Part shown: positions 22,861 through 32,103 of the stretch, one piece after another
How the letters are laid out: each line of letters opens with the position of its first letter
Numbering within the stretch: position 1 is the first letter of the stretch
NCBI GenBank assembly: GCA_937139365.1
Contig: CAKZPT010000115.1
Coordinates: 1 to 32,274 of the forward strand
Reading direction: 5' to 3'
DNA length: 32,274 nt
Source: an uncultured bacterium
Lineage (GTDB): Bacteria > Verrucomicrobiota > Kiritimatiellia > PWTM01
Program-made: the position numbers and the translations under genes
Notes under the pieces: model-generated
Seen by the model: only the letters and a program-made list of their open reading frames with translations
Databases searched by the model: none
Told to the model about the DNA's origin: nothing

Positions 22861-22931
22861 GACGACGGCGGCTCTCGCCGCCCGGTTCGTTCCGCCCGTC
22901 TTCTCGTCTTCGTTTTCGTGGGCGCGCGCGA
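22861..22931 (-). repeat. Dispersed hairpin (REP-like) repeat, copy 2, inverted
   Basis: Read on the minus strand, this matches 32199-32266 almost base for base over about 68 positions: GCGCGCGCC, GAAAACGAAGACGAGAAGAC, GGGCGGAACGAACC, then the hairpin GGCGGC/GCCGCC (22867-22872 and 22877-22882) with loop GAGA on the repeat strand. It lies upstream of the defence operon in the opposite orientation to the copy downstream of it. Confidence 0.75.
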
Positions 22932-23024
22932 AGAGGAAGAGGCTGCGGATTGACGGGCTCCACTCACCAACCCCCTATGCCGCCTGCGGCGGCAGCAGCC
23001 AGCCAGGAAAGAGCGCTGTCGCGT

Positions 23025-23072
23025 TTTTCCAACGTTTGGAAAAGTGCCTTCGACAGTCTTCCAACGTCTGGA
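23025..23072. promoter_or_regulatory. Two adjacent TTCCA-type palindromes
   Basis: TTTTCCAA (23025-23032), CGT, TTGGAAAA (23036-23043) is a perfect 8-base-arm palindrome. A second, shorter one, TTCCA (23059-23063) and TGGAA (23068-23072) with ACGTC between, follows 15 bases later. Both centre on an ACGT-like core. Paired palindromes of this kind look like a regulator site or a short genome-wide repeat. From memory, similar TTCCAA/TTGGAA palindromes recur in Kiritimatiellota and related genomes; I cannot verify that here. Confidence 0.5.
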
Positions 23073-23551
23073 AATCCCCTCGGAATGCGCTCTAATCCCG
23101 CCGCTTGAGGCGTCGGAATTCGTCGGTTTCTACCCCGGCCATGTTTCAAGTGCCGTTTCCGCCGGGCTCCGTAAACTCCACCCGTCGAAAGCCGTCACTT
23201 CAAACACGGCCCCCCAACGCCGCCGGGCAATTCGCCCCGAGTGTGCACGTACGGTGCAAACGTCGCGGCCATTTGCCTTTTCGGCGGCAAGAGCCTGCCG
23301 GGCGCTCTTCTCGTTCTCGCGCCCGTCACCGCTCCGACGCGCACGGGCTCTCCGTCGCTGGGTCGGGCCGCTGGCCCTCCGCGGTGTCCGGCTTCGCCGG
23401 GTTCGCTCCGCGCGCACCCGTCACGCCACGGCGAAGACGCCGTGCAATGCCGGTTACTGTGCGCTCCGTTCACGGGATGCGGTAACAACGTGTTCTCAAT
23501 CGCCGGAGCGGAACTGGGGCGCTTGAGAACTTGGTTCGGTTTCAATTTTGT

Positions 23552-23617
23552 CCGGTCCTGACCGGTTTCCGCACGCTTGCGTGGACACGCTTTGCTACGG
23601 TATCAAGCGTTTATGAT
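23552..23617 (+). promoter_or_regulatory. Candidate operator/promoter region of the defence operon
   Basis: A 14-base palindrome, CCGGTCCTGACCGG (23552-23565), is followed by three copies of the half-site ACGCTT: at 23573-23578, at 23587-23592, and inverted as AAGCGT at 23605-23610. TATGAT (23612-23617) is a fair -10 box directly after the last half-site. No good -35 hexamer sits at the right distance, so an activator or a weak, repressed promoter is possible. The first gene of the operon encodes a small HTH protein that could bind these sites. Confidence 0.4.
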
Positions 23618-23621
23618 CCAT

Positions 23622-23641
23622 GCGCCGGGCGATCCCGGCGC
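23622..23641 (+). other. Perfect GC hairpin in the leader of the defence operon
   Basis: GCGCCGGG (23622-23629), loop CGAT, CCCGGCGC (23634-23641) form an eight-pair perfect stem that ends 22 bases before the chosen HTH start codon. In RNA it would be very stable and lies just ahead of the ribosome-binding region, so it could limit translation of the first gene or protect the transcript. As DNA it could also be a dimer-binding site. Confidence 0.5.
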
Positions 23642-23663
23642 GGAGTGACAAACGGAAATGACG

Positions 23664-23855
23664 ATGCAACAAGAGCGTTGGCTGTCGGTGGACGAGATCG
23701 CCGCACATCTCGGAGTGAACCCGGACACGGTTTACAAGTGGATAGAACGGAAGAAGCTTCCTGCCCACAAAGTTGGCCGACTATGGAAGTTCAAAGCGAC
23801 TGAGGTGGACGAGTGGGTGAGAGAAGGCAAAGCAGCGGAGACGCAAAGCGGATGA
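23664..23855 (+). CDS. Small excisionase/MerR-type helix-turn-helix protein
   Basis: The 63-residue protein is almost entirely a winged-helix HTH of the HTH_17/excisionase type: WLSVDEIAAHLGVNPDTVYKWIE is the HTH, then the wing PAHKVGRLWKFK, then the closing helix VDEWVREG. These proteins bind DNA, often as the first gene of defence or mobile operons. ATG 23664 was chosen because GGA lies 7 bases upstream and the HTH begins six residues in; ATG 23658 adds two residues but abuts that site. Its stop overlaps the helicase start (ATGA at 23852), so the two are translationally coupled. Likely role: operon autoregulation through the palindromes upstream, or DNA recognition for the system. Both are inference. 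Confidence 0.88.
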   Translation: MQQERWLSVDEIAAHLGVNPDTVYKWIERKKLPAHKVGRLWKFKATEVDEWVREGKAAETQSG

Positions 23856-26800
23856 CAAATGGTTCCCATACAAGACCGCCTTCGTTGGACCTCACGTTCA
23901 TTACGAACGAGGCGGGCCAGTCGCTGCGCGATCGTTTTGCCACGCTGCTCCACAAAGGCACGCGCTTCTTCGACTGCCTTGTCGGTTACTTCTTCATCAG
24001 CGGTTTCTACAGAATTTACCCGTCCTTGGAGAACGTCGCGAAGATTCGGATTCTCGTAGGACTTCAGACCGACCGAACCGCGTACGACCTGCTCCAGCGG
24101 GCCAAAGAACAGGGAGAACTCGATCTTCAGTCGCACGCGACCTGCAAGGAGCAAGTTGCCAAGGACGTGCTCGACGAGTTGGAGAAAGCTGCTGACAGCG
24201 TTGAGGTGGAAAGCGGTGTTCACAAGTTCGTTGAGTGGATTCGGTCGGGCAAGCTGGAGATCAAGGCCCACCCGAGCGAGAACCTTCACGCCAAGGTCTA
24301 CATCATGACCTTCTCGGAGGGCGACCGGGACAAAGGGCGGGTCATCACCGGTTCAAGCAACCTCACTCAAGCCGGACTTCAGGACAATCTTGAGTTCAAT
24401 GTCGAGTTGAAGAATCCCGCCGACTACGACTTCGCCATCGCCAAGTTCAACGAACTGTGGGCAACGGCCGTAGACGTATCGCAGCCGTACGAAGACACGA
24501 TCGTAAACAAATCCCCCTTCGCCAGCTTCACGCCCTACGAACTGTATCTGAAATTCCTCTACGAGTACTTCAGGAACGAACTGAACCGCCCCTCAGAACT
24601 TGAGGACATGTATGTCCCCGTGGGATTCAAGAAGCTGAAGTATCAGGAAGAGGCGGTTTTGAACGCGCGCAAGGTGCTGGAGGAGTATGGCGGCGTGTTC
24701 CTTTCCGATGTCGTAGGGCTCGGGAAGACCTACATCGCAGCCCTGCTGGCCCAGCAACTGGACGGGCGGCATCTCGTTATCGCGCCGCCGCATCTGCTCA
24801 ACAAAGAAAAGCGCGGTTCTTGGCCGAATGTGTTCAGCGATTTTCAAGTCCGGCAGACGGATTTTGAGTCCATCGGCAAGCTGGAACACCTCCTTGGGCG
24901 CGACATTTCGAAATACAAAAATGTTTTCATCGATGAGTCCCATCGCTTCCGCACGGAAACGACCCAAAGCTATGAAATGCTCGCCCAAATCTGCCGAGGC
25001 AAGAGGGTCATCCTTGTTTCCGCCACACCATTGAACAACACGCCGTTGGATATTCTCAGCCAAGTCAAACTGTTCCAGGCGGGCAAAGCCAGCAACATAC
25101 CGACCCTCCGCAATCTCGAAGCATTCTTCGCGGGCCTTCAAGCCAAGCTGAAGGGGCTGGATCGGCAGACCGACCGCGAACTCTATTTCCGCACGGTTGA
25201 AGCGAACGCCAAGGAGATCCGCGAGAGGGTCCTAAAGTTCCTGATGGTGCGGCGCACCCGAACCGAGATCGAAAAATACTACGGCGAGGACATGAAACAG
25301 CAGGGCTTGAAGTTTCCCGAGGTCGAGGACCCGATTCCGCTGTTCTACAAGTTCAGCAAGCAGGAGAACGAAATCTTCAACGAGACGTTGAAGCTGCTTA
25401 CCTCCGACTTCACCTACGCCCGATATGCGCCGCTGCTCTACTACGAAGGCAAAATGGATGAGCGCGAACGGCAAGGCCAACGAAACCTCGCCAAGTTCAT
25501 GAAAATCCTGATGGTCAAGCGCCTCGAAAGCAGTTTCCACGCGTTTCGGCTGACCCTGGACCGGTTCGCGCATTCGTATGACCGCGTCATCGCGGAGTTC
25601 AAGAAGGGCAACGTGTACATCAGCAAGAAGCACATCGGGAAAATCTTCGATCTTCTCGAACAGGACGATCAGGAAGGGATTGAGAACCTTCTGGAGCAGG
25701 ACAAGGCCGTGCGGCTGGCCGCGAAGGATTTCTCGGCAGAATTCATCGAACACCTCGAGGCAGACTACCGCACCTTGCACCGAATCAAGGAGATGTGGGC
25801 CGACATCAGGCGCGATCCCAAATGGATGGCCTTCCGGGAAGTCCTGAAATCCGAGCCGCACCTGAAGAAGGGCAAACTCGTTATCTTCACCGAGTCGCAG
25901 GAGACCGCCGGATACCTGGCCGATCGCATCCGCGCCGAAGTGGACGAGAAGACGCTCATGTTCTGCGGCAATTCGGGCGAGTCACAGCTCCAGGACGTCA
26001 TCGACAACTTCGATGCCAATGCCGTCAAGCCGTCCGATGCCTACCGGATACTCGTCAGCACGGAAGTTCTTTCCGAGGGCGTCAACCTGCACCGGTCAAA
26101 CGTGGTCATCAACTACGACATCCCTTGGAATCCAACGCGCCTGATTCAGCGCGTCGGACGCGTCAATCGCGTGGATAGCAATTTCGGCGCCATCTACACC
26201 TACAACTTCTTTCCCACGGAAGAGGGCAACGACGCCATCAAACTGCGCGAGTCCGCGGAAGCCAAGATTCACGCATTCATCGAGATGCTGGGGGCGGACG
26301 CCCGCCTGTTGACCGAGGGCGAGGAAGTCAAATCGCACGACCTTTTCGCCAAGCTCACCAGCAAGAAGATCATTACCGGCGAGGACGAAGACGAAGAAAG
26401 CGAACTCGAATACCTCACGGAAATCCGCACCGTGCGCGACAAACAACCCGAGCTTTTCGCCCGGATCAAACGACTTCCGAAGAAGGCCCGGTCCACGCGC
26501 ACCGTGCCGGCCGCGCAGGACGCCGTGGCGCCGCACTTCCCTTCGTTGCTGACCTACTTCCGGCAGGGCCGTCTGGACAAGTTCTACCTAGCTGCCCAAG
26601 ACACGTCTTCTCCGGTTGAACTCGACTTTCTGACTGCCGCAAAACTTATGAAGCCGTCAGACCCCGCCGAGAAACGTCAACCCATCCCGCCCGACTTCTA
26701 CACCCTGTTGGATCGAAACAAGGAAGCCTTCGCCGCTGCTAGCAGCCTCGAGAAGGACGACGCCGTTCCCCGCCGCAAGGGCGGAGCCAACGACACCTAC

Positions 26801-27103
26801 ATCCTGAAACGCCTCAAAGCGAAGGAAATCCAGCAGTACCCCGGCTTCACGGATGAGGACGAGGAATACATCCGCAACGTAATCCAGCTTCTGAGAGACG
26901 GTTCCCTTCCCAAGCCGACGACCAAGAAGGTCGCCGAAGCGCTCAAGCGCGAGGTCGAGCCGCTGAAAGTGCTCGGAATCCTGCGCCGGGACATTTCGCC
27001 ATATTTCTTTCAGGCAACCCGCGCCCAGCAAATGCGCCATTTTATGATGCCGCGAGAGGTGATCTTGTCGTCATGGATCGTTTCAGGAGAACGTAATGCC
27101 TAA
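23852..27103 (+). CDS. PLD-nuclease domain fused to SF2 (SNF2-like) helicase
   Basis: The 1083-residue protein has an N-terminal phospholipase D-like domain: FFDCLVGYFFISGFYRIYP at about 39, His146-x-Lys148, then GSSNLT at 167-172. The usual Asp five residues after Lys148 is Thr, as also seems usual in helicase-linked PLD domains. One HxK half-site means it would need to dimerise. The SF2 motor follows: YQEEAV (Q motif), DVVGLGKT (286-293), DESH (361-364), SATPLNN (390-396), and the C-terminal lobe with VIFTESQETA, STEVLSEGVNL and QRVGRVNR (766-773). Most likely it translocates on DNA and cuts or remodels it. ATG 23852 overlaps the HTH stop; an upstream ATG (23813) would lie inside the HTH gene. 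It overlaps the next gene by eight bases. Confidence 0.92.
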   Translation: MTNGSHTRPPSLDLTFITNEAGQSLRDRFATLLHKGTRFFDCLVGYFFISGFYRIYPSLENVAKIRILVGLQTDRTAYDLLQRAKEQGELDLQSHATCKEQVAKDVLDELEKAADSVEVESGVHKFVEWIRSGKLEIKAHPSENLHAKVYIMTFSEGDRDKGRVITGSSNLTQAGLQDNLEFNVELKNPADYDFAIAKFNELWATAVDVSQPYEDTIVNKSPFASFTPYELYLKFLYEYFRNELNRPSELEDMYVPVGFKKLKYQEEAVLNARKVLEEYGGVFLSDVVGLGKTYIAALLAQQLDGRHLVIAPPHLLNKEKRGSWPNVFSDFQVRQTDFESIGKLEHLLGRDISKYKNVFIDESHRFRTETTQSYEMLAQICRGKRVILVSATPLNNTPLDILSQVKLFQAGKASNIPTLRNLEAFFAGLQAKLKGLDRQTDRELYFRTVEANAKEIRERVLKFLMVRRTRTEIEKYYGEDMKQQGLKFPEVEDPIPLFYKFSKQENEIFNETLKLLTSDFTYARYAPLLYYEGKMDERERQGQRNLAKFMKILMVKRLESSFHAFRLTLDRFAHSYDRVIAEFKKGNVYISKKHIGKIFDLLEQDDQEGIENLLEQDKAVRLAAKDFSAEFIEHLEADYRTLHRIKEMWADIRRDPKWMAFREVLKSEPHLKKGKLVIFTESQETAGYLADRIRAEVDEKTLMFCGNSGESQLQDVIDNFDANAVKPSDAYRILVSTEVLSEGVNLHRSNVVINYDIPWNPTRLIQRVGRVNRVDSNFGAIYTYNFFPTEEGNDAIKLRESAEAKIHAFIEMLGADARLLTEGEEVKSHDLFAKLTSKKIITGEDEDEESELEYLTEIRTVRDKQPELFARIKRLPKKARSTRTVPAAQDAVAPHFPSLLTYFRQGRLDKFYLAAQDTSSPVELDFLTAAKLMKPSDPAEKRQPIPPDFYTLLDRNKEAFAAASSLEKDDAVPRRKGGANDTYILKRLKAKEIQQYPGFTDEDEEYIRNVIQLLRDGSLPKPTTKKVAEALKREVEPLKVLGILRRDISPYFFQATRAQQMRHFMMPREVILSSWIVSGERNA

Positions 27104-27860
27104 ACTTCGGCCCAGCGGCGGCTACCGCGATACGGCCAGCTTCCAGACGGCGACGATCGTCTACGACGCGACCTACTGGTTCTGTGAGAAGTTCCTCGAC
27201 CCGCATTCGCGCACGGTGGACCAGATGGTGCAGGCCGCCCGATCCGGCCGCCAGAACATCGCGGAGGCCAGCCGCGCCGCCGCCACCTCCTCGCAAACCG
27301 AACTGCGCCTGCTCAACGTCGCGCGCGCCAGCCTGGAGGAACTCCTGCTCGATCTTGAGGATTTCCTCCGCCACCGGCACTTGCCGCAATGGGCGCCCGA
27401 CGCGCCGGAGGCCTTGGCCGTGCGGCAAGTCCCGCAGCGCTTCCGGCAGAACCGGTCGGATCAGTCGGATCGGTCGGATCTGACCGATCTGACGGATCGA
27501 CAGCGCTGGGCGCTCTACGCGCCTTGGCTGGAACACGCCGACCCCGCCGTGCGGGCCAATGCCCTCATCTGCCTCATCCACCAGGCGAATTTCCTGCTCG
27601 ATCAGCAGATCGCCGCGCTGGAGCGGGCCTTCATCGAAGGCGGCGGCTATAGCGAACAACTCGCCGCCGCCCGGCTCGCCGAGCGGCAACGCCGCAAACA
27701 TGATCCGTCGGATCCGTCGGATCCGTCCGATCGCATCCCCAACTGCCCCAACTGCGGCAAACCCATGGTCCTGCGCACGGCGAAAGCGGGCAAGAATGCG
27801 GGCCGGCAGTTCTGGGGCTGCACCGGCTACCCGGATTGCAAGGGAACCGTGCCCGTATGA
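27096..27860 (+). CDS. Four-helix-bundle protein with topoisomerase-type zinc finger
   Basis: The 254-residue protein begins with a helical region (about 10-95: TATIVYDATYWFCEKFL, then QMVQAARSGRQNIAEASRA) that matches the 23S-IVS/four-helix-bundle family, here of the longer 'suffix' type. The second half has another helical part (about 135-200). A topoisomerase I-type C4 zinc ribbon closes it: Cys217, Cys220, Cys242, Cys248 in CPNCGKP and FWGCTGYPDCKG. Two Asp-x-Ser micro-repeats (27453-27497, 27702-27732) form the linkers between these parts. The zinc ribbon suggests single-strand DNA binding. Position between helicase and methylase, with overlaps of 8 and 4 bases, suggests it is an adaptor of the complex; its role is unknown. 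Confidence 0.85.
   Translation: MPKLRPSGGYRDTASFQTATIVYDATYWFCEKFLDPHSRTVDQMVQAARSGRQNIAEASRAAATSSQTELRLLNVARASLEELLLDLEDFLRHRHLPQWAPDAPEALAVRQVPQRFRQNRSDQSDRSDLTDLTDRQRWALYAPWLEHADPAVRANALICLIHQANFLLDQQIAALERAFIEGGGYSEQLAAARLAERQRRKHDPSDPSDPSDRIPNCPNCGKPMVLRTAKAGKNAGRQFWGCTGYPDCKGTVPV
27453..27497 (+). repeat. Nine-base micro-repeat, five units, in the 4HB gene
   Basis: The units are CGGTCGGAT, CAGTCGGAT, CGGTCGGAT, CTGACCGAT and CTGACGGAT. They read SDQSDRSDLTDLTDR between the two helical parts of the protein. Most junctions create GATC. The same unit type occurs at four other places in this operon and not clearly elsewhere in the window. Confidence 0.85.
27702..27732 (+). repeat. Nine-base micro-repeat, three units, before the zinc finger
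   Basis: Units are GATCCGTCG, GATCCGTCG and GATCCGTCC, then GATC once more. They are read DPSDPSDPSDR, just ahead of the first zinc-ribbon cysteines. Every unit contains GATC. Confidence 0.85.
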
Positions 27861-30800
27861 ACAAGCAACAAGCTGCCCAACTCATCAAGGACACCTTCAC
27901 CCGGCCCTTCGACCGGGACCGCTTCCGCCGGTTCGCCATCAACCTGCTGAACCGCATGGACGAGTCCAAGAAGACCTCCATGCAGGTGCCGGACGCCTTT
28001 GCCGCGCACGTGAAAAGCTGTCAACGGCTGGCCACGTATACCGATCCCACCGGCGAGTTGATGGACGTTCTCGTCGTTCACCTGACCGAGGATTGGAAGA
28101 TCGATCGCACCCGCACCGCCCTGCGCGATTTCGTGGCCCACAAACTCAAGCGTGGCGAACATTACAAGGAAGCGGGCCTGGTCGCGTTTGTGTCGCCGGA
28201 CGCCGCACGCTGGCGGCTCTCCTATGTCCGGATGCAGTACGAGTCCGTCCGCGACCCGAAAACCGGACTCATCAAGCCCGAAGAAAAAGTCACCCCCGCC
28301 CGCCGCTTTTCCTACCTCGTCGGCGAAGGCGAAAGCTGCCACACCGCGCAGACCCGGTTTCTCGACCTTCTCCAGGACACCGCCACTGATCCCACGCTCG
28401 CGCAGATCGAGGAAGCCTTCAGCGTCGAGGCCGTCACCAAGGAATTCTTCGGCGAGTACGCGGAGCTTGTCGGTGCCATCAACGCCGCCCTTGAAAAGAT
28501 GGTCGCCAAGGACAAGACGCTCCGCGACGAGTTCACCGCGAAGGGCGTCAACACCGTGGACTTCGCCAAGAAACTCCTCGGGCAGATTGTCTTTCTCTAT
28601 TTCCTCCAGAAAAAAGGCTGGCTCGGTGTCGAGAAAGGGAAGGACTGGGGCACCGGCCCGCGCGACTTCCTCCGGCGGCTCGTGGATCAGGCGGATCGGT
28701 CGGACCAGTCGAATCTTTTCAACGATGTTTTCGAGCCCCTTTTCTACGACACCCTCGCCACGGACCGGGGCCACGAGGCGTGGTGCAGCCGCTTCAACTG
28801 CCGCATCCCGTTTCTGAACGGCGGTCTGTTCGAGCCGCTGAACGGCTACGACTGGGAGAAAACCGACATCCTCATCCCGAACCGGCTATTCACGAACAAC
28901 GAGGTTGTTGAAGAAGGCGTCACCGGGACCGGCGTCCTCGACGTGTTCGACCGCTACAACTTCACCGTCAACGAGGCCGAACCGCTGGAAAAAGAGGTCG
29001 CCATTGACCCGGAAATGCTCGGAAAGGTTTTCGAGAATCTGATCGAGGAAAACCGGCGCAAAGGGCTGGGCGCGTTTTACACCCCGCGCGAGATCGTCCA
29101 CTACATGTGCCAGGAAAGCTTGATCAACTACCTGGAAACAGCCGTCACCACCGTTCCTCGCGCCGACATCGAAACCTTCGTCCGCCTCGGCGAGCAGATT
29201 TCGCACTACGAGGCGGTGGACGCGAAATATGCCGTCAAGATGCCCAAGAGCATCATCGCCCATGCGAAGGCGCTGGACGATGCGCTCAAGACGATCACCG
29301 TCTGCGATCCCGCGGTCGGCTCCGGCGCATTCCCGGTCGGCATGATGACCGAAATCGTCCGCTGCCGCATGGCCCTGAACCCCTTCTTCGATGCCTCCAA
29401 TCCGTCGGATCAGTCGGCCCGCACCCCCTATCACTTCAAGCGCCACGCCATTCAGAACTCCCTCTACGGCGTGGACATTGACTCCAGCGCCGTCGAAATC
29501 GCCAAGCTCCGGCTTTGGCTCTCTTTGGTTGTGGACGAGGAGGACGTGAAGCAGATCAAGCCGCTCCCGAACCTCGATTACAAGATCGTGTGCGGCAACT
29601 CGTTGCTGGGGGTTGAGAAGGACCTCTTCAACCAGGAAGCCTTCAACCGGCTCGAAAAGCTGAAATCCCTCTTCTTCGATCAGTCAGATCAGTCTGAAAA
29701 GGCCGCCCTGCGCCGCCAGATCAACGAAATCATCCGCCAACTCACCCGCGACCGCGAGACCTTCGACTTCGAGATTTTCTTCTCCGAGGTCTTCCACCAA
29801 AAAGGCGGCTTCGATGTCGTCATCGCCAATCCGCCGTATGTCTCGGTTAAGAAGTTCGCGAGAACCGCGCAGCAGATGGAATGGAAGCGCCGGTTCAAGA
29901 CTTTTGCCGCGCGGGGCGACATTTACTGTTTCTTTTACGAGCGCGGGTTGGGGCTCCTCCGCGACGATGGCGTCTTGACGTTCATCAGTTCCAACAAGTT
30001 CCAGCGTGCAGGATATGGCATGGGCTTGCGCCAGTTGCTGGCATCCCAACGAATTCGCGCGTTGGTGGATTTTTGTGAACTGCCTGTCTTCGCCGCCGCC
30101 ACCGATCCCATGATCGTTGTGGTCAACAAAGGCGCTCCCGCCAAGAACCACGAAATACCCGTGGTGGTCATCAAGGATGAGGCGGAATTTGAAACCCTTC
30201 ATCAGTCCCTTGCGACGCGGGGCAACCTCTACAAGCCTGAACAACTCAAGGCTGACGGTTGGTCGCTCGAAGGCGGTGATGGCCTTGCCCTCGTGGACAA
30301 GCTGCGCTCAAAAGGAACGCCGCTCGGGCAGTACGTGAATGGCCGCTTCTACCGGGGTATATTGACCGGCCTGAACGAGGCCTTTGTAATCGACCGCGCC
30401 ACGCGCGACCGGTTGATTCGCGAGGACCGCAAATCGGCCGAACTCATCAAGCCGTGGATCCGGGGGCGGGACATTCATCGGTGGACGCACGAGTACCATG
30501 ACCTATACGTGATCCTTGTCCGGTATGAATTCCACACGGAGCTCAAACACTATCCCGCCATCCTTCGCCACCTGTCTCAGTTCTCCAAGGAACTTAAGGC
30601 ACGTGGGCAGTGCCAAACATCCCGGGATGGAGCGGCGGAGGGTCAGCATCATTGGCTGGAATTGGATAATAACCCCTCGCAATCCTACCTCGATGCCTTT
30701 ACAGAGCCGAAAATTGTTATCGCCGATATCGGCAAACTCCTGAAGGCGGCATGGTCTGAAGGGGGGCACGTCATTGGGAACACAGGCTACATTCTCCCTG

Positions 30801-30871
30801 GCGCGGAAAGAGCGCTACTCGCCGTCTTGCTGAGTTCCGTTGTTGACTGGTATGCCCGCATGACTTTTTAG
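27857..30871 (+). CDS. Eco57I-type N6-adenine DNA methyltransferase, cut by a TAG
   Basis: The 1004-residue frame starts MNKQQAAQLIKDTFTRPFD, the opening of large Eco57I/PglX-like methylases. Motif I DPAVGSGAF is at 484-492, and the catalytic NPPY is at 658-661, so it should methylate adenine N6. A TaqI-like target-recognition region follows (about 800-1000, with KPWIRGRDIHRW). I see no clear PD-(D/E)xK nuclease in the N-terminal 300 residues. ATG 27857 overlaps the previous stop (ATGA). TAG at 30869-30871 ends it after VVDWYARMTF, but the same frame then reads ALGDPWKGGRMRFINRNLV and the family's usual IPIP ending, so the full gene is 27857-31147 (1096 residues plus TAG). Loss of the tail could damage target recognition. 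Confidence 0.9.
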   Translation: MNKQQAAQLIKDTFTRPFDRDRFRRFAINLLNRMDESKKTSMQVPDAFAAHVKSCQRLATYTDPTGELMDVLVVHLTEDWKIDRTRTALRDFVAHKLKRGEHYKEAGLVAFVSPDAARWRLSYVRMQYESVRDPKTGLIKPEEKVTPARRFSYLVGEGESCHTAQTRFLDLLQDTATDPTLAQIEEAFSVEAVTKEFFGEYAELVGAINAALEKMVAKDKTLRDEFTAKGVNTVDFAKKLLGQIVFLYFLQKKGWLGVEKGKDWGTGPRDFLRRLVDQADRSDQSNLFNDVFEPLFYDTLATDRGHEAWCSRFNCRIPFLNGGLFEPLNGYDWEKTDILIPNRLFTNNEVVEEGVTGTGVLDVFDRYNFTVNEAEPLEKEVAIDPEMLGKVFENLIEENRRKGLGAFYTPREIVHYMCQESLINYLETAVTTVPRADIETFVRLGEQISHYEAVDAKYAVKMPKSIIAHAKALDDALKTITVCDPAVGSGAFPVGMMTEIVRCRMALNPFFDASNPSDQSARTPYHFKRHAIQNSLYGVDIDSSAVEIAKLRLWLSLVVDEEDVKQIKPLPNLDYKIVCGNSLLGVEKDLFNQEAFNRLEKLKSLFFDQSDQSEKAALRRQINEIIRQLTRDRETFDFEIFFSEVFHQKGGFDVVIANPPYVSVKKFARTAQQMEWKRRFKTFAARGDIYCFFYERGLGLLRDDGVLTFISSNKFQRAGYGMGLRQLLASQRIRALVDFCELPVFAAATDPMIVVVNKGAPAKNHEIPVVVIKDEAEFETLHQSLATRGNLYKPEQLKADGWSLEGGDGLALVDKLRSKGTPLGQYVNGRFYRGILTGLNEAFVIDRATRDRLIREDRKSAELIKPWIRGRDIHRWTHEYHDLYVILVRYEFHTELKHYPAILRHLSQFSKELKARGQCQTSRDGAAEGQHHWLELDNNPSQSYLDAFTEPKIVIADIGKLLKAAWSEGGHVIGNTGYILPGAERALLAVLLSSVVDWYARMTF
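28685..28711 (+). repeat. Nine-base micro-repeat, three units, in the methylase gene
   Basis: Units are GATCAGGCG, GATCGGTCG and GACCAGTCG, read DQADRSDQS. The insertion lies in the segment after RRLV and before NLFNDVF, in the same codon phase as the other copies. Confidence 0.75.
29399..29416 (+). repeat. Nine-base micro-repeat, two units, in the methylase gene
   Basis: Units AATCCGTCG and GATCAGTCG are read NPSDQS in a loop of the methyltransferase domain, after FFDAS and before ARTPYHFK. The codon phase is that of the other copies. Confidence 0.65.
29678..29695 (+). repeat. Nine-base micro-repeat, two units, in the methylase gene
   Basis: Units GATCAGTCA and GATCAGTCT are read DQSDQS, between LKSLFF and EKAALRRQ. 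Again the same phase; the copy is slightly diverged. Confidence 0.65.
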
Positions 30872-30901: not shown

Positions 30902-31147
30902 ATGCGGTTCATAAACAGGAATCTCGTGACGATCCCCATCCCTTCTGCCTCCCCTGCCGACAAGGCCCGGCTGACGAAGCTGGCGGAGCGAGCGGCGAAG
31001 CAGGCCGAGGCGGAGGATGCGGCCGGACTGCGGGCGACGGAGCGGGAGATTGACGAGATCGTCTATCGCCTGTTCGACCTGACCCCGGACGAGATCGCGT
31101 ACATCGAGGATGTCGCTCGCCAGCGTCCGGGCAGCAGCGGGCAGTGA
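30902..31147 (+). CDS. Detached C-terminal tail of the methyltransferase
   Basis: The 81-residue reading frame from ATG 30902 is in the same frame as the upstream methyltransferase and separated only by TAG 30869-30871 plus ten sense codons. It starts MRFINRNLVTIPIPSAS, the closing motif of Eco57I/TaqI-type target-recognition domains, and continues with a charged helical tail (KLAERAAKQAEAEDAAG, then REIDEIVYRLFDLTPDEIAYIE) usual at the end of this family. On its own it is not a known functional protein. Its TGA overlaps the DUF3800 ATG (TGATG), which shows the operon was built with the full-length gene. Confidence 0.8.
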   Translation: MRFINRNLVTIPIPSASPADKARLTKLAERAAKQAEAEDAAGLRATEREIDEIVYRLFDLTPDEIAYIEDVARQRPGSSGQ

Positions 31148-32103
31148 TGAGGATTCGGAGTCCGATGACGGAACCTGATCTTTTCGGATACACCCAGCCT
31201 CCGGCCGAGCCGACCGAATACATCGTCTATCACGATGAATCCAAGGAGCCAGGATTCTGGCATATCTTCCTTTTTGTTCCCGAGGCAAGCCGCGGTGAAT
31301 TGATCGCGGCGCTTGAGGAGGCATGGCGGAACAGCGGGTACCATGGCCAACACCGCCACTACAGCGACCTTCGGAGCAGCTCCACCGGCCACAGCATGGC
31401 GGATTGTTGGCTTCAGATTCTTCATGCCTCTTTTCAGAAGAAGATCGGCTCAGGCATGCTGCCTTTTAGGACAGGCCAAGATCGCGCGCGTAGGAACCCA
31501 CCAAGAACCTTTTCACGTCCATTGGGGTGTCGGATGGCGGTTTTCCGAATCGAGAACGGGCTCAAGGACCTGAGCCCCTCGATGGATCAAACCCGTCGCG
31601 TTGAGCTGACCTTTCGGATGGGCTTGCAAGGGGCCTGCCATTACTTCCACGACGAAAACAACCCGATGGTGCTCCGCCATATTTACATCGACCGCGAGAG
31701 GCAGTATCAACGTCCGCTCGATAAAGAATGGATTCTGGAAAAGCTCCGGAAGAGGTTTCGAGACTACTGCCGGCTTCCCCGCGAATGCGGCATTGAAGGA
31801 GAAGCGGTAAGCGCCGAAGACCGGATCATTCTCGATGCCGCCGACATCTTGCTTGGGGTCATAAGGAATTTCTACATAACGCCCGATCTGTCCGCCCTGA
31901 ATCCACGCAGGGCTGAACATTGCCGAATGATTCAGCCACTGGTGGACGACATCGGAAAAGGACAGAAGCGCATGATCAACAGTCGGCTCGGCGTATTCGG
32001 AACCCTTTCGACTGCTCGCATTGAGGGCGATCAATGGATTTTCGCCCCGTTGCATAAAGAGACCGACAGTAACTTGTCGTCGCACCCAGAGCTGCCGCTG
32101 TAA
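31147..32103 (+). CDS. DUF3800-domain protein, last gene of the defence operon
   Basis: The 318-residue protein has the DUF3800 landmarks: YIVYHDES near the start, HYSDLRS, a later strand ending IYIDRER, and LDAADILLGVIRNFY toward the C-terminus. These acidic positions fit a predicted RNase H-like fold; activity is not established for most members. ATG 31147 overlaps the methylase-tail stop (TGATG), so I took it. ATG 31168 is also plausible because GGAG lies just upstream. A broken second copy lies at 145-547. The middle part (about residues 95-125) is Arg-rich and could hide a compensated frameshift, since the other frame there is also similar between the two copies. A nuclease role is inference. 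Confidence 0.85.
   Translation: MRIRSPMTEPDLFGYTQPPAEPTEYIVYHDESKEPGFWHIFLFVPEASRGELIAALEEAWRNSGYHGQHRHYSDLRSSSTGHSMADCWLQILHASFQKKIGSGMLPFRTGQDRARRNPPRTFSRPLGCRMAVFRIENGLKDLSPSMDQTRRVELTFRMGLQGACHYFHDENNPMVLRHIYIDRERQYQRPLDKEWILEKLRKRFRDYCRLPRECGIEGEAVSAEDRIILDAADILLGVIRNFYITPDLSALNPRRAEHCRMIQPLVDDIGKGQKRMINSRLGVFGTLSTARIEGDQWIFAPLHKETDSNLSSHPELPL

Follow-up and report, generated by a model that had tools for sequence, protein, structure and literature searches.

A likely promoter–operator with 10-bp direct repeats ahead of a phage-defence operon headed by a small HTH_17 gene

The region around positions 23552–23641 of the window (the whole stretch of 32,274 nucleotides that was analysed) is likely to be the promoter–operator of a phage-defence operon under the control of its own first gene, whose 65-residue HTH_17 product would act through direct repeats with a 10-bp period. 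Four observations computed directly from sequence bear on this reading: the 10-bp periodicity itself, its link to the HTH gene, a promoter conserved among close relatives, and the variety of the operons that lie downstream of homologous HTH genes.

The G + C content drops at this stretch from about 64–74 per cent to about 55–65 per cent. Directly downstream is an operon-like run of four genes, which encode the HTH_17 protein, a helicase, a four-helix/zinc-ribbon protein, and a type IIG enzyme. The features of the control region and the operon are as follows:

23549–23566, + strand: direct repeat of 10-bp period, TGTCCGGTcc followed by TGACCGGT, matching in 7/8 positions at lag 10 and proposed as the core operator for the HTH protein
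23552–23565: palindrome CCGGTCCTGACCGG
23573–23578, + strand: ACGCTT, first copy, inside CACGCTTGCGTG (23572–23583); putative -35 position, 17 bp from the -10 in aligned upstream regions and T[GT]GC[CT][CT] in 7/8 relatives
23582–23587, + strand: TGGACA box in the promoter spacer, possibly a degenerate unit of the repeat array
23587–23592: ACGCTT, second copy
23593–23601, + strand: putative extended -10, TGC-TACGGT, with GCTA kept in nine aligned promoters
23605–23610: AAGCGT, the complement of ACGCTT
23612–23617: TATGAT
23622–23641, + strand: 8-pair hairpin GCGCCGGG-CGAT-CCCGGCGC in the predicted 5' leader
23658–23855, + strand: 65-residue MAD1-like HTH_17 protein with a winged HTH model, proposed autoregulator
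23852–27103, + strand: PLD and SNF2-type helicase, with a start ATG that overlaps the stop codon of the HTH gene
27096–27860, + strand: four-helix-bundle suffix protein with a zinc ribbon (TIGR04258, Zn_ribbon_Top1)
27836–30871, + strand: type IIG restriction enzyme–methyltransferase (PADLOC REase_MTase_IIG, 852 bits)

The type IIG gene ends at an in-frame TAG (30869–30871); no further stop closes the frame until 31147, and the 81 residues encoded after the TAG match the C-terminal end of type IIG models. A nonsense change, an assembly error, or readthrough could each account for this. It is followed by a 319-residue ORF (31144–32103) with no match in Pfam, NCBIfam, or PADLOC. Nine-base tandem repeats GATCNGTCN, which code for SD-rich runs, occur within the four-helix-suffix gene as well as the type IIG gene (27459–27498, 27702–27732, 28685–28711, and 29678–29695; 9 pattern matches versus 0.1 expected).

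The HTH protein matches HTH_17/excisionase-type models (PF12728, 66.6 bits, cut-off 27; TIGR01764, 66.4 bits, cut-off 28.8). HTH_17 is the best of the eight Pfam families listed for it, none of which is of the cI type. Its closest named protein model is NF047737, for MAD1 of the methylation-associated defence system (MADS), yet the score of 76.3 bits lies just under the cut-off of 80; the BldC model NF033787 scored 20.2 bits against a cut-off of 77. No other MADS gene was detected in the six ORFs scanned, save for a weak match of MAD2 to the type IIG protein (22.6 bits versus a cut-off of 720). A single-sequence AlphaFold2 model of the HTH protein (pLDDT of 80.7) is a winged HTH that resembles BldC (6ama) and Xis (4j2n). 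Foldseek placed RacA, Pukovnik Xis, and BldC at the top ranks, none with an E-value under 0.001, and VIA-align gave Z-scores of 8.3 for pSK1 Par, 7.8 for RacA, 6.6 for BldC, and 6.4 for Xis, in a set of rows that includes many unrelated winged HTH proteins. The fold class predicted from the model is clearly that of MerR/BldC/Xis-type winged HTH proteins; the nearest relative within it is less clear.

A 10-bp repeat period is a signature of this HTH family and is linked to the HTH gene. In the lag spectrum of direct repeats in HTH upstream regions, lag 10 stands out (z of 13–14), followed by lag 20 (z of 3.4–4.9), and the other lags are near zero, with the exception of lag 11 in one of three settings (z of 2.6). 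A repeat of at least 7/8 at exactly 10 bp is present in 15 of 46 non-redundant HTH upstream regions (shuffle mean of 1.43 and maximum of 6 in 300 sets) and in 9 of 17 regions of a separate plasmid set (shuffle mean of 0.65, maximum of 3), which leaves 31/46 and 8/17 homologues, respectively, below this threshold. For comparison, upstream regions of other ORFs in the same loci reach it at lag 10 in 19 of 400 cases (Fisher's test versus 15/46, P-value = 7e-8); these controls exceed shuffles at some lags (33 at lag 12 and 27 at lag 15). Where the HTH gene is lacking, the upstream regions of orthologous helicase genes reach it in 7 of 80 cases at lag 10, and in 4–11 at lags 8–13. Inverted repeats of at least 7/8, counted in 63 regions with spacers of 0–12, were within the range of 60 shuffles, with counts at spacers 4 and 7 as high as the highest shuffle. 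In assembling these sets, the starts of HTH genes were taken from tblastn alignments, and HTH records scoring below 55 bits were discarded, as was one of 61 regions with too little upstream sequence, and 14/60 genome and 6/23 plasmid regions were removed as similar to another; one similar pair (L385/L206) spans the two sets.

When the sequence upstream of the window's HTH gene is shuffled, a repeat like that at 23549–23566 turns up in 3.1 per cent of cases; taken alone, the repeat of the window is not extreme. Of the nine TGGACA-bearing promoters, that of the window alone passes the 7/8 threshold at lag 10. Some repeat units in the family have AAACC/CCGGT-like cores, with three copies in Desulforapulum and Piscinibacter plasmids, and a locus whose HTH protein is 80 per cent identical (L197) carries TGTTGGATCC-TGTCGGATTC-TGGCGGGTTT ahead of TGC-TATATT. 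When close relatives are compared by eye, [C/T]GG units appear to recur every 9 to 11 bases, by way of TGGACA, as far as the TGC of the -10, and two other genomes (G013 and G055) may retain degenerate left units.

A promoter scan found no consensus sigma-70 promoter, and a sigma-54 promoter was rejected on a GG-N9-GC spacing misfit in comparison with the sigma-54 consensus spacing. By its spacing, the promoter common to the relatives reads as a weak -35, a 17-bp spacer with TGGACA, and an extended -10. TGGACA lies ahead of GCTA at -72 to -85 in 9 of 61 HTH upstream regions, whose proteins are 60–100 per cent identical. In 16 genomes, partly chosen for carrying the module, TGGACA-N5-TGCTA-N3-T had 12 matches versus 1 for the reversed control: nine at HTH genes, one of them a remnant, and three, all in one genome (G050), before other genes. 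Ten genomes on this partly chosen list have a match, and in nine of them the module is single-copy and located at the HTH gene or its remnant. The shorter TTGGACA-N6-GCTA alone had 11 matches versus 29 for its control in 16 genomes. Across 276 genomes that were not chosen in this way, a longer promoter pattern had 16 matches versus 13 for the reversed control, of which 8 are at HTH genes or a remnant, 2 are in G050, and 6 are of the kind expected by chance. Given the match counts at HTH genes and the G050 exceptions, the module goes together with the HTH gene in the genomes considered, yet not exclusively. The G050 modules (L358, L365, and L366) combine TGGACA with an extended -10, and G050 is outside the set of genomes with an HTH match at an E-value of 1e-12. 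In another genome (G088, locus L231), the conserved promoter is intact and only a C-terminal remnant of the HTH gene is left, followed by the next gene, and in G076 the HTH gene runs off its contig. The promoter pattern was also present in 107 stretches of viral contigs, 80 of which were made into loci.

Upstream of the promoter, at 23492–23530, there is an imperfect long hairpin with a conserved loop region and variable stem letters. Copies of it (L157, L159, L161, and L165) precede the HTH gene in three other genomes; in G029 the hairpin occurs away from the HTH gene. The sequence that flanks the hairpin upstream is found again in G043 and, in two copies, in G080, and the hairpin looks like a dispersed structured repeat. 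A candidate further copy of the leader elsewhere in the genome (C34) was rejected, as the region reads as coding and the similarity looks like chance.

The first-pass annotation had noted an operator-like layout here, made up of the palindrome, three ACGCTT-type half-sites, a TATGAT box, and the hairpin, and had compared the HTH protein to the controller (C) proteins of restriction systems. All of these elements are present in the sequence, and the analysis adds the 10-bp direct repeat and two overlapping short palindromes (23572–23583 and 23579–23590). In 2000 dinucleotide shuffles of the 90 bases, a hexamer occurring three times on either strand was found in 11.2 per cent, an inverted repeat with 6-bp arms and a spacer of up to 2 in 8.4 per cent, and one with 8-bp arms and a spacer of up to 8 in 1.2 per cent. 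Therefore, the hairpin is the sole individually unusual element among those named. When HTH upstream regions were aligned, the ACGCTT sites were not conserved, the result that the annotation itself had set as its refutation: of 60 regions, 56 have none, three have one copy, and the window has three. TATGAT is absent from the upstream regions of relatives, and the left arm of the palindrome is not kept in them. We rejected the half-sites, the TATGAT box, and the palindrome as an inverted repeat; CCGGTCCTGACCGG, which falls inside the repeat at 23549–23566, is better read as part of the 10-bp direct repeat. C proteins have an inverted-repeat operator. Although they are likewise small HTH proteins encoded before restriction genes, the protein here belongs to HTH_17, with the predicted MerR/BldC/Xis-type fold, and its family has no clear excess of inverted repeats; it is not a classical C protein, and the analogy extends to the supposed role alone. 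Passages of PMC12255303 liken C proteins to the HTH of lambda cI. The earlier proposal thus pointed to the right place and to a plausible role, control of the operon by the small HTH protein through sites at the promoter, which the HTH-linked 10-bp repeats support at the level of the family; most of the sites that it named, and the protein family that it used as an analogy, were wrong.

Several close relatives have a hairpin at the position of the leader hairpin, and in G076 and G020 the bases of its stem differ. Individually, 3 of 11 leaders are below a P-value of 0.05 (those of G013, G055, and G127 are not among them), and the combined P-value without the window is 0.013, calculated on related, non-independent sequences. 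Pair counts were not taken from the MAFFT alignment because longer-looped hairpins are misplaced there. The whole HTH set has no hairpin excess (mean z of -0.34 versus -0.12; P-value = 0.09), and no Rfam match was found up to an E-value of 1 in 22900–23900. Conservation of the putative hairpin among close relatives is thus modestly supported, whereas the hairpin as a family-wide feature is not.

The HTH family heads varied defence operons, which include BREX, DISARM, type I restriction, helicase–methylase, and Mrr systems. Relatives of the HTH protein were found in 41 of 288 genomes of the class (E-value up to 1e-12) and in 39 of 387 genomes of the phylum (E-value up to 1e-15). Relatives of the helicase are common, but few follow an HTH_17 gene. 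Of 82 distinct loci with 350 bases or more of upstream sequence, only 5 have one (7 of 84 before the window copies L001 and L003 were removed): the window, L023 (presumably contig C41 of G127, which has the same length), L007 (which has a stop inside the HTH gene), and L041 and L043 (with distant HTH genes). Elsewhere in the class, the genes found after the HTH gene include:

G077: SNF2 helicase, DUF4391, and an N4/N6 methylase
G013: another PLD-SNF2 helicase
G055: N6-methylase
G020: AAA_21 ATPase
G043: HsdM and a YhcG nuclease
G017: Mrr

On plasmids, restriction, BREX, DISARM, or helicase with DUF1156/DUF4391 genes lie within 4 kb downstream of the HTH gene in 19 of 21 annotated loci, one of the 19 being split by IS1; the other two annotated loci gave no clear picture. 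These loci come from 23 analysed matches out of 57 (two lack annotation; the remaining 34 are mostly apparent same-organism, same-score repeats). Plasmid hosts in which the HTH gene precedes defence genes belong to Actinomycetota, Pseudomonadota, Thermodesulfobacteriota, Chloroflexota, and Bacillota, and the 10-bp repeat of the Chloroflexota plasmid is below the threshold. The MAD1 cut-off was reached by 3 of 10 homologues scanned, and these head DISARM, type I restriction–modification, or helicase with DUF4391 operons.

Proteins of similar architecture offer a model for how the HTH protein may act. BldC binds direct repeats head-to-tail at sites of 9 bp, as described in passages of PMC5859096, and RdfS is assigned to the HTH_17 group in passages of PMC11963761, where Xis-type proteins are said to bind as head-to-tail oligomers. 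Like the HTH protein, BldC, RdfS, and Pukovnik Xis consist of a single small winged-HTH domain and have direct-repeat sites, which in the case of the HTH protein are putative. Direct repeats in the controlled promoter, as in BldC, are found here both as the lag-10 excess of the family and as the repeat of the window, with units of 10 bp instead of 9. BldC is a developmental regulator and RdfS and Xis act in excision, whereas the HTH gene heads a defence operon. Among regulators of defence genes, passages of PMC12255303 describe RptR, a repressor of type I restriction islands, as a very small first-gene regulator with repeats at its own promoter. RptR and the HTH protein are alike in these respects, but RptR is a four-helix dimer with 6-bp TAGCTA palindromes within 9-bp repeats (PMC12255303), and there is no TAGCTA in 23541–23660. 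BrxR/CapW proteins co-localize with many kinds of defence systems and repress their own promoter, according to passages of PMC9122601; they are WYL-domain dimers with 11-bp inverted repeats, in contrast to the single HTH_17 domain and direct repeats here.

Taken together, the fold class, the direct-repeat binding of BldC, the place of RdfS in the HTH_17 group, and the 10-bp repeats support a model in which HTH subunits line up head-to-tail along the promoter. Binding, its head-to-tail mode, the extension of the array, the sign of regulation, and any inducer are inferred. Transcription would start from the weak -35 and extended -10 (23573–23601), and the HTH protein would bind as a head-to-tail oligomer, with about one subunit per helical turn, at 23549–23566, just before the -35. 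The array probably goes on into the promoter, with degenerate [C/T]GG units every 9 to 11 bp. The likeliest effect would be autorepression that keeps the helicase/type IIG operon low, because the array reaches right up to the core promoter and may extend into it; repression is also favoured because the comparable first-gene regulators RptR and BrxR repress (passages of PMC12255303 and PMC9122601). Lying upstream as they do, the repeats could also serve an activator, and the protein may instead activate, or activate at low dose and repress at high dose. The same kind of protein with 10-bp repeats would then be a shared regulator before unrelated defence operons.

Several other readings can be set against autoregulation through direct repeats. 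The TGGACA box and extended -10 might constitute a promoter class for another factor or sigma subunit, with the HTH protein inactive here, as could be argued from the three modules before non-HTH genes in G050 and from the G088 module that persists with only the C-terminal part of the HTH frame. However, the near-equal counts of the longer pattern and its control suggest that most non-HTH matches are chance, half of its 16 matches are at HTH genes or a remnant, nearly all genomes with a match on the partly chosen list have the module once and there, and a promoter class leaves the 10-bp repeats of the wider family unexplained; we consider this reading rather unlikely. Control at the RNA level, with translation or mRNA stability governed by the leader hairpin beside the ribosome-binding region and the repeats in the DNA incidental, would fit the rarity of the hairpin in shuffles and its position and stem changes in close relatives, but is improbable in view of the few significant leaders, the absence of an excess in the whole set, and the lack of an Rfam match.

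The matches to excisionase models, the shared fold class of RdfS and Pukovnik Xis, and the many plasmid copies raise the further possibility that the HTH protein is a recombination directionality factor and the repeats are recombination sites. In the annotated plasmid loci examined, though, the genes after the HTH gene are for defence and not for an integrase (an integrase or recombinase lies upstream in a few), and the repeats sit just before the start of the HTH gene, which makes this role quite improbable. An inverted array of ACGCTT half-sites bound by a C-protein-like dimer, as originally proposed, has in its favour the three exact sites in the window; with those sites not conserved, a protein of the wrong family, and no clear inverted-repeat excess, we give it hardly any credence.

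The control of defence operons is still poorly understood, and the described regulators that we found (C proteins, BrxR/CapW, RptR, and CapK/CapS) belong to other families. A literature search, in which subscription journals were little covered, found nothing on 10-bp repeats of MAD1-like regulators. What emerges as new is a tiny autoregulator of defence operons with 10-bp direct-repeat operators. We lean slightly toward a broader view, in which MAD1-like HTH_17 proteins are one widespread regulator family that forms Xis/BldC-like filaments on 10-bp direct repeats at unrelated defence promoters, and in which gene and operator are exchanged as a regulatory cassette between BREX, DISARM, type I, IIG restriction, and other systems. 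If this is true, a single 65-residue family stands ahead of defence genes in Verrucomicrobia-type metagenome-assembled genomes and in plasmids of several phyla, and its readable 10-bp-repeat operator would allow the control of many unrelated systems to be predicted from sequence.
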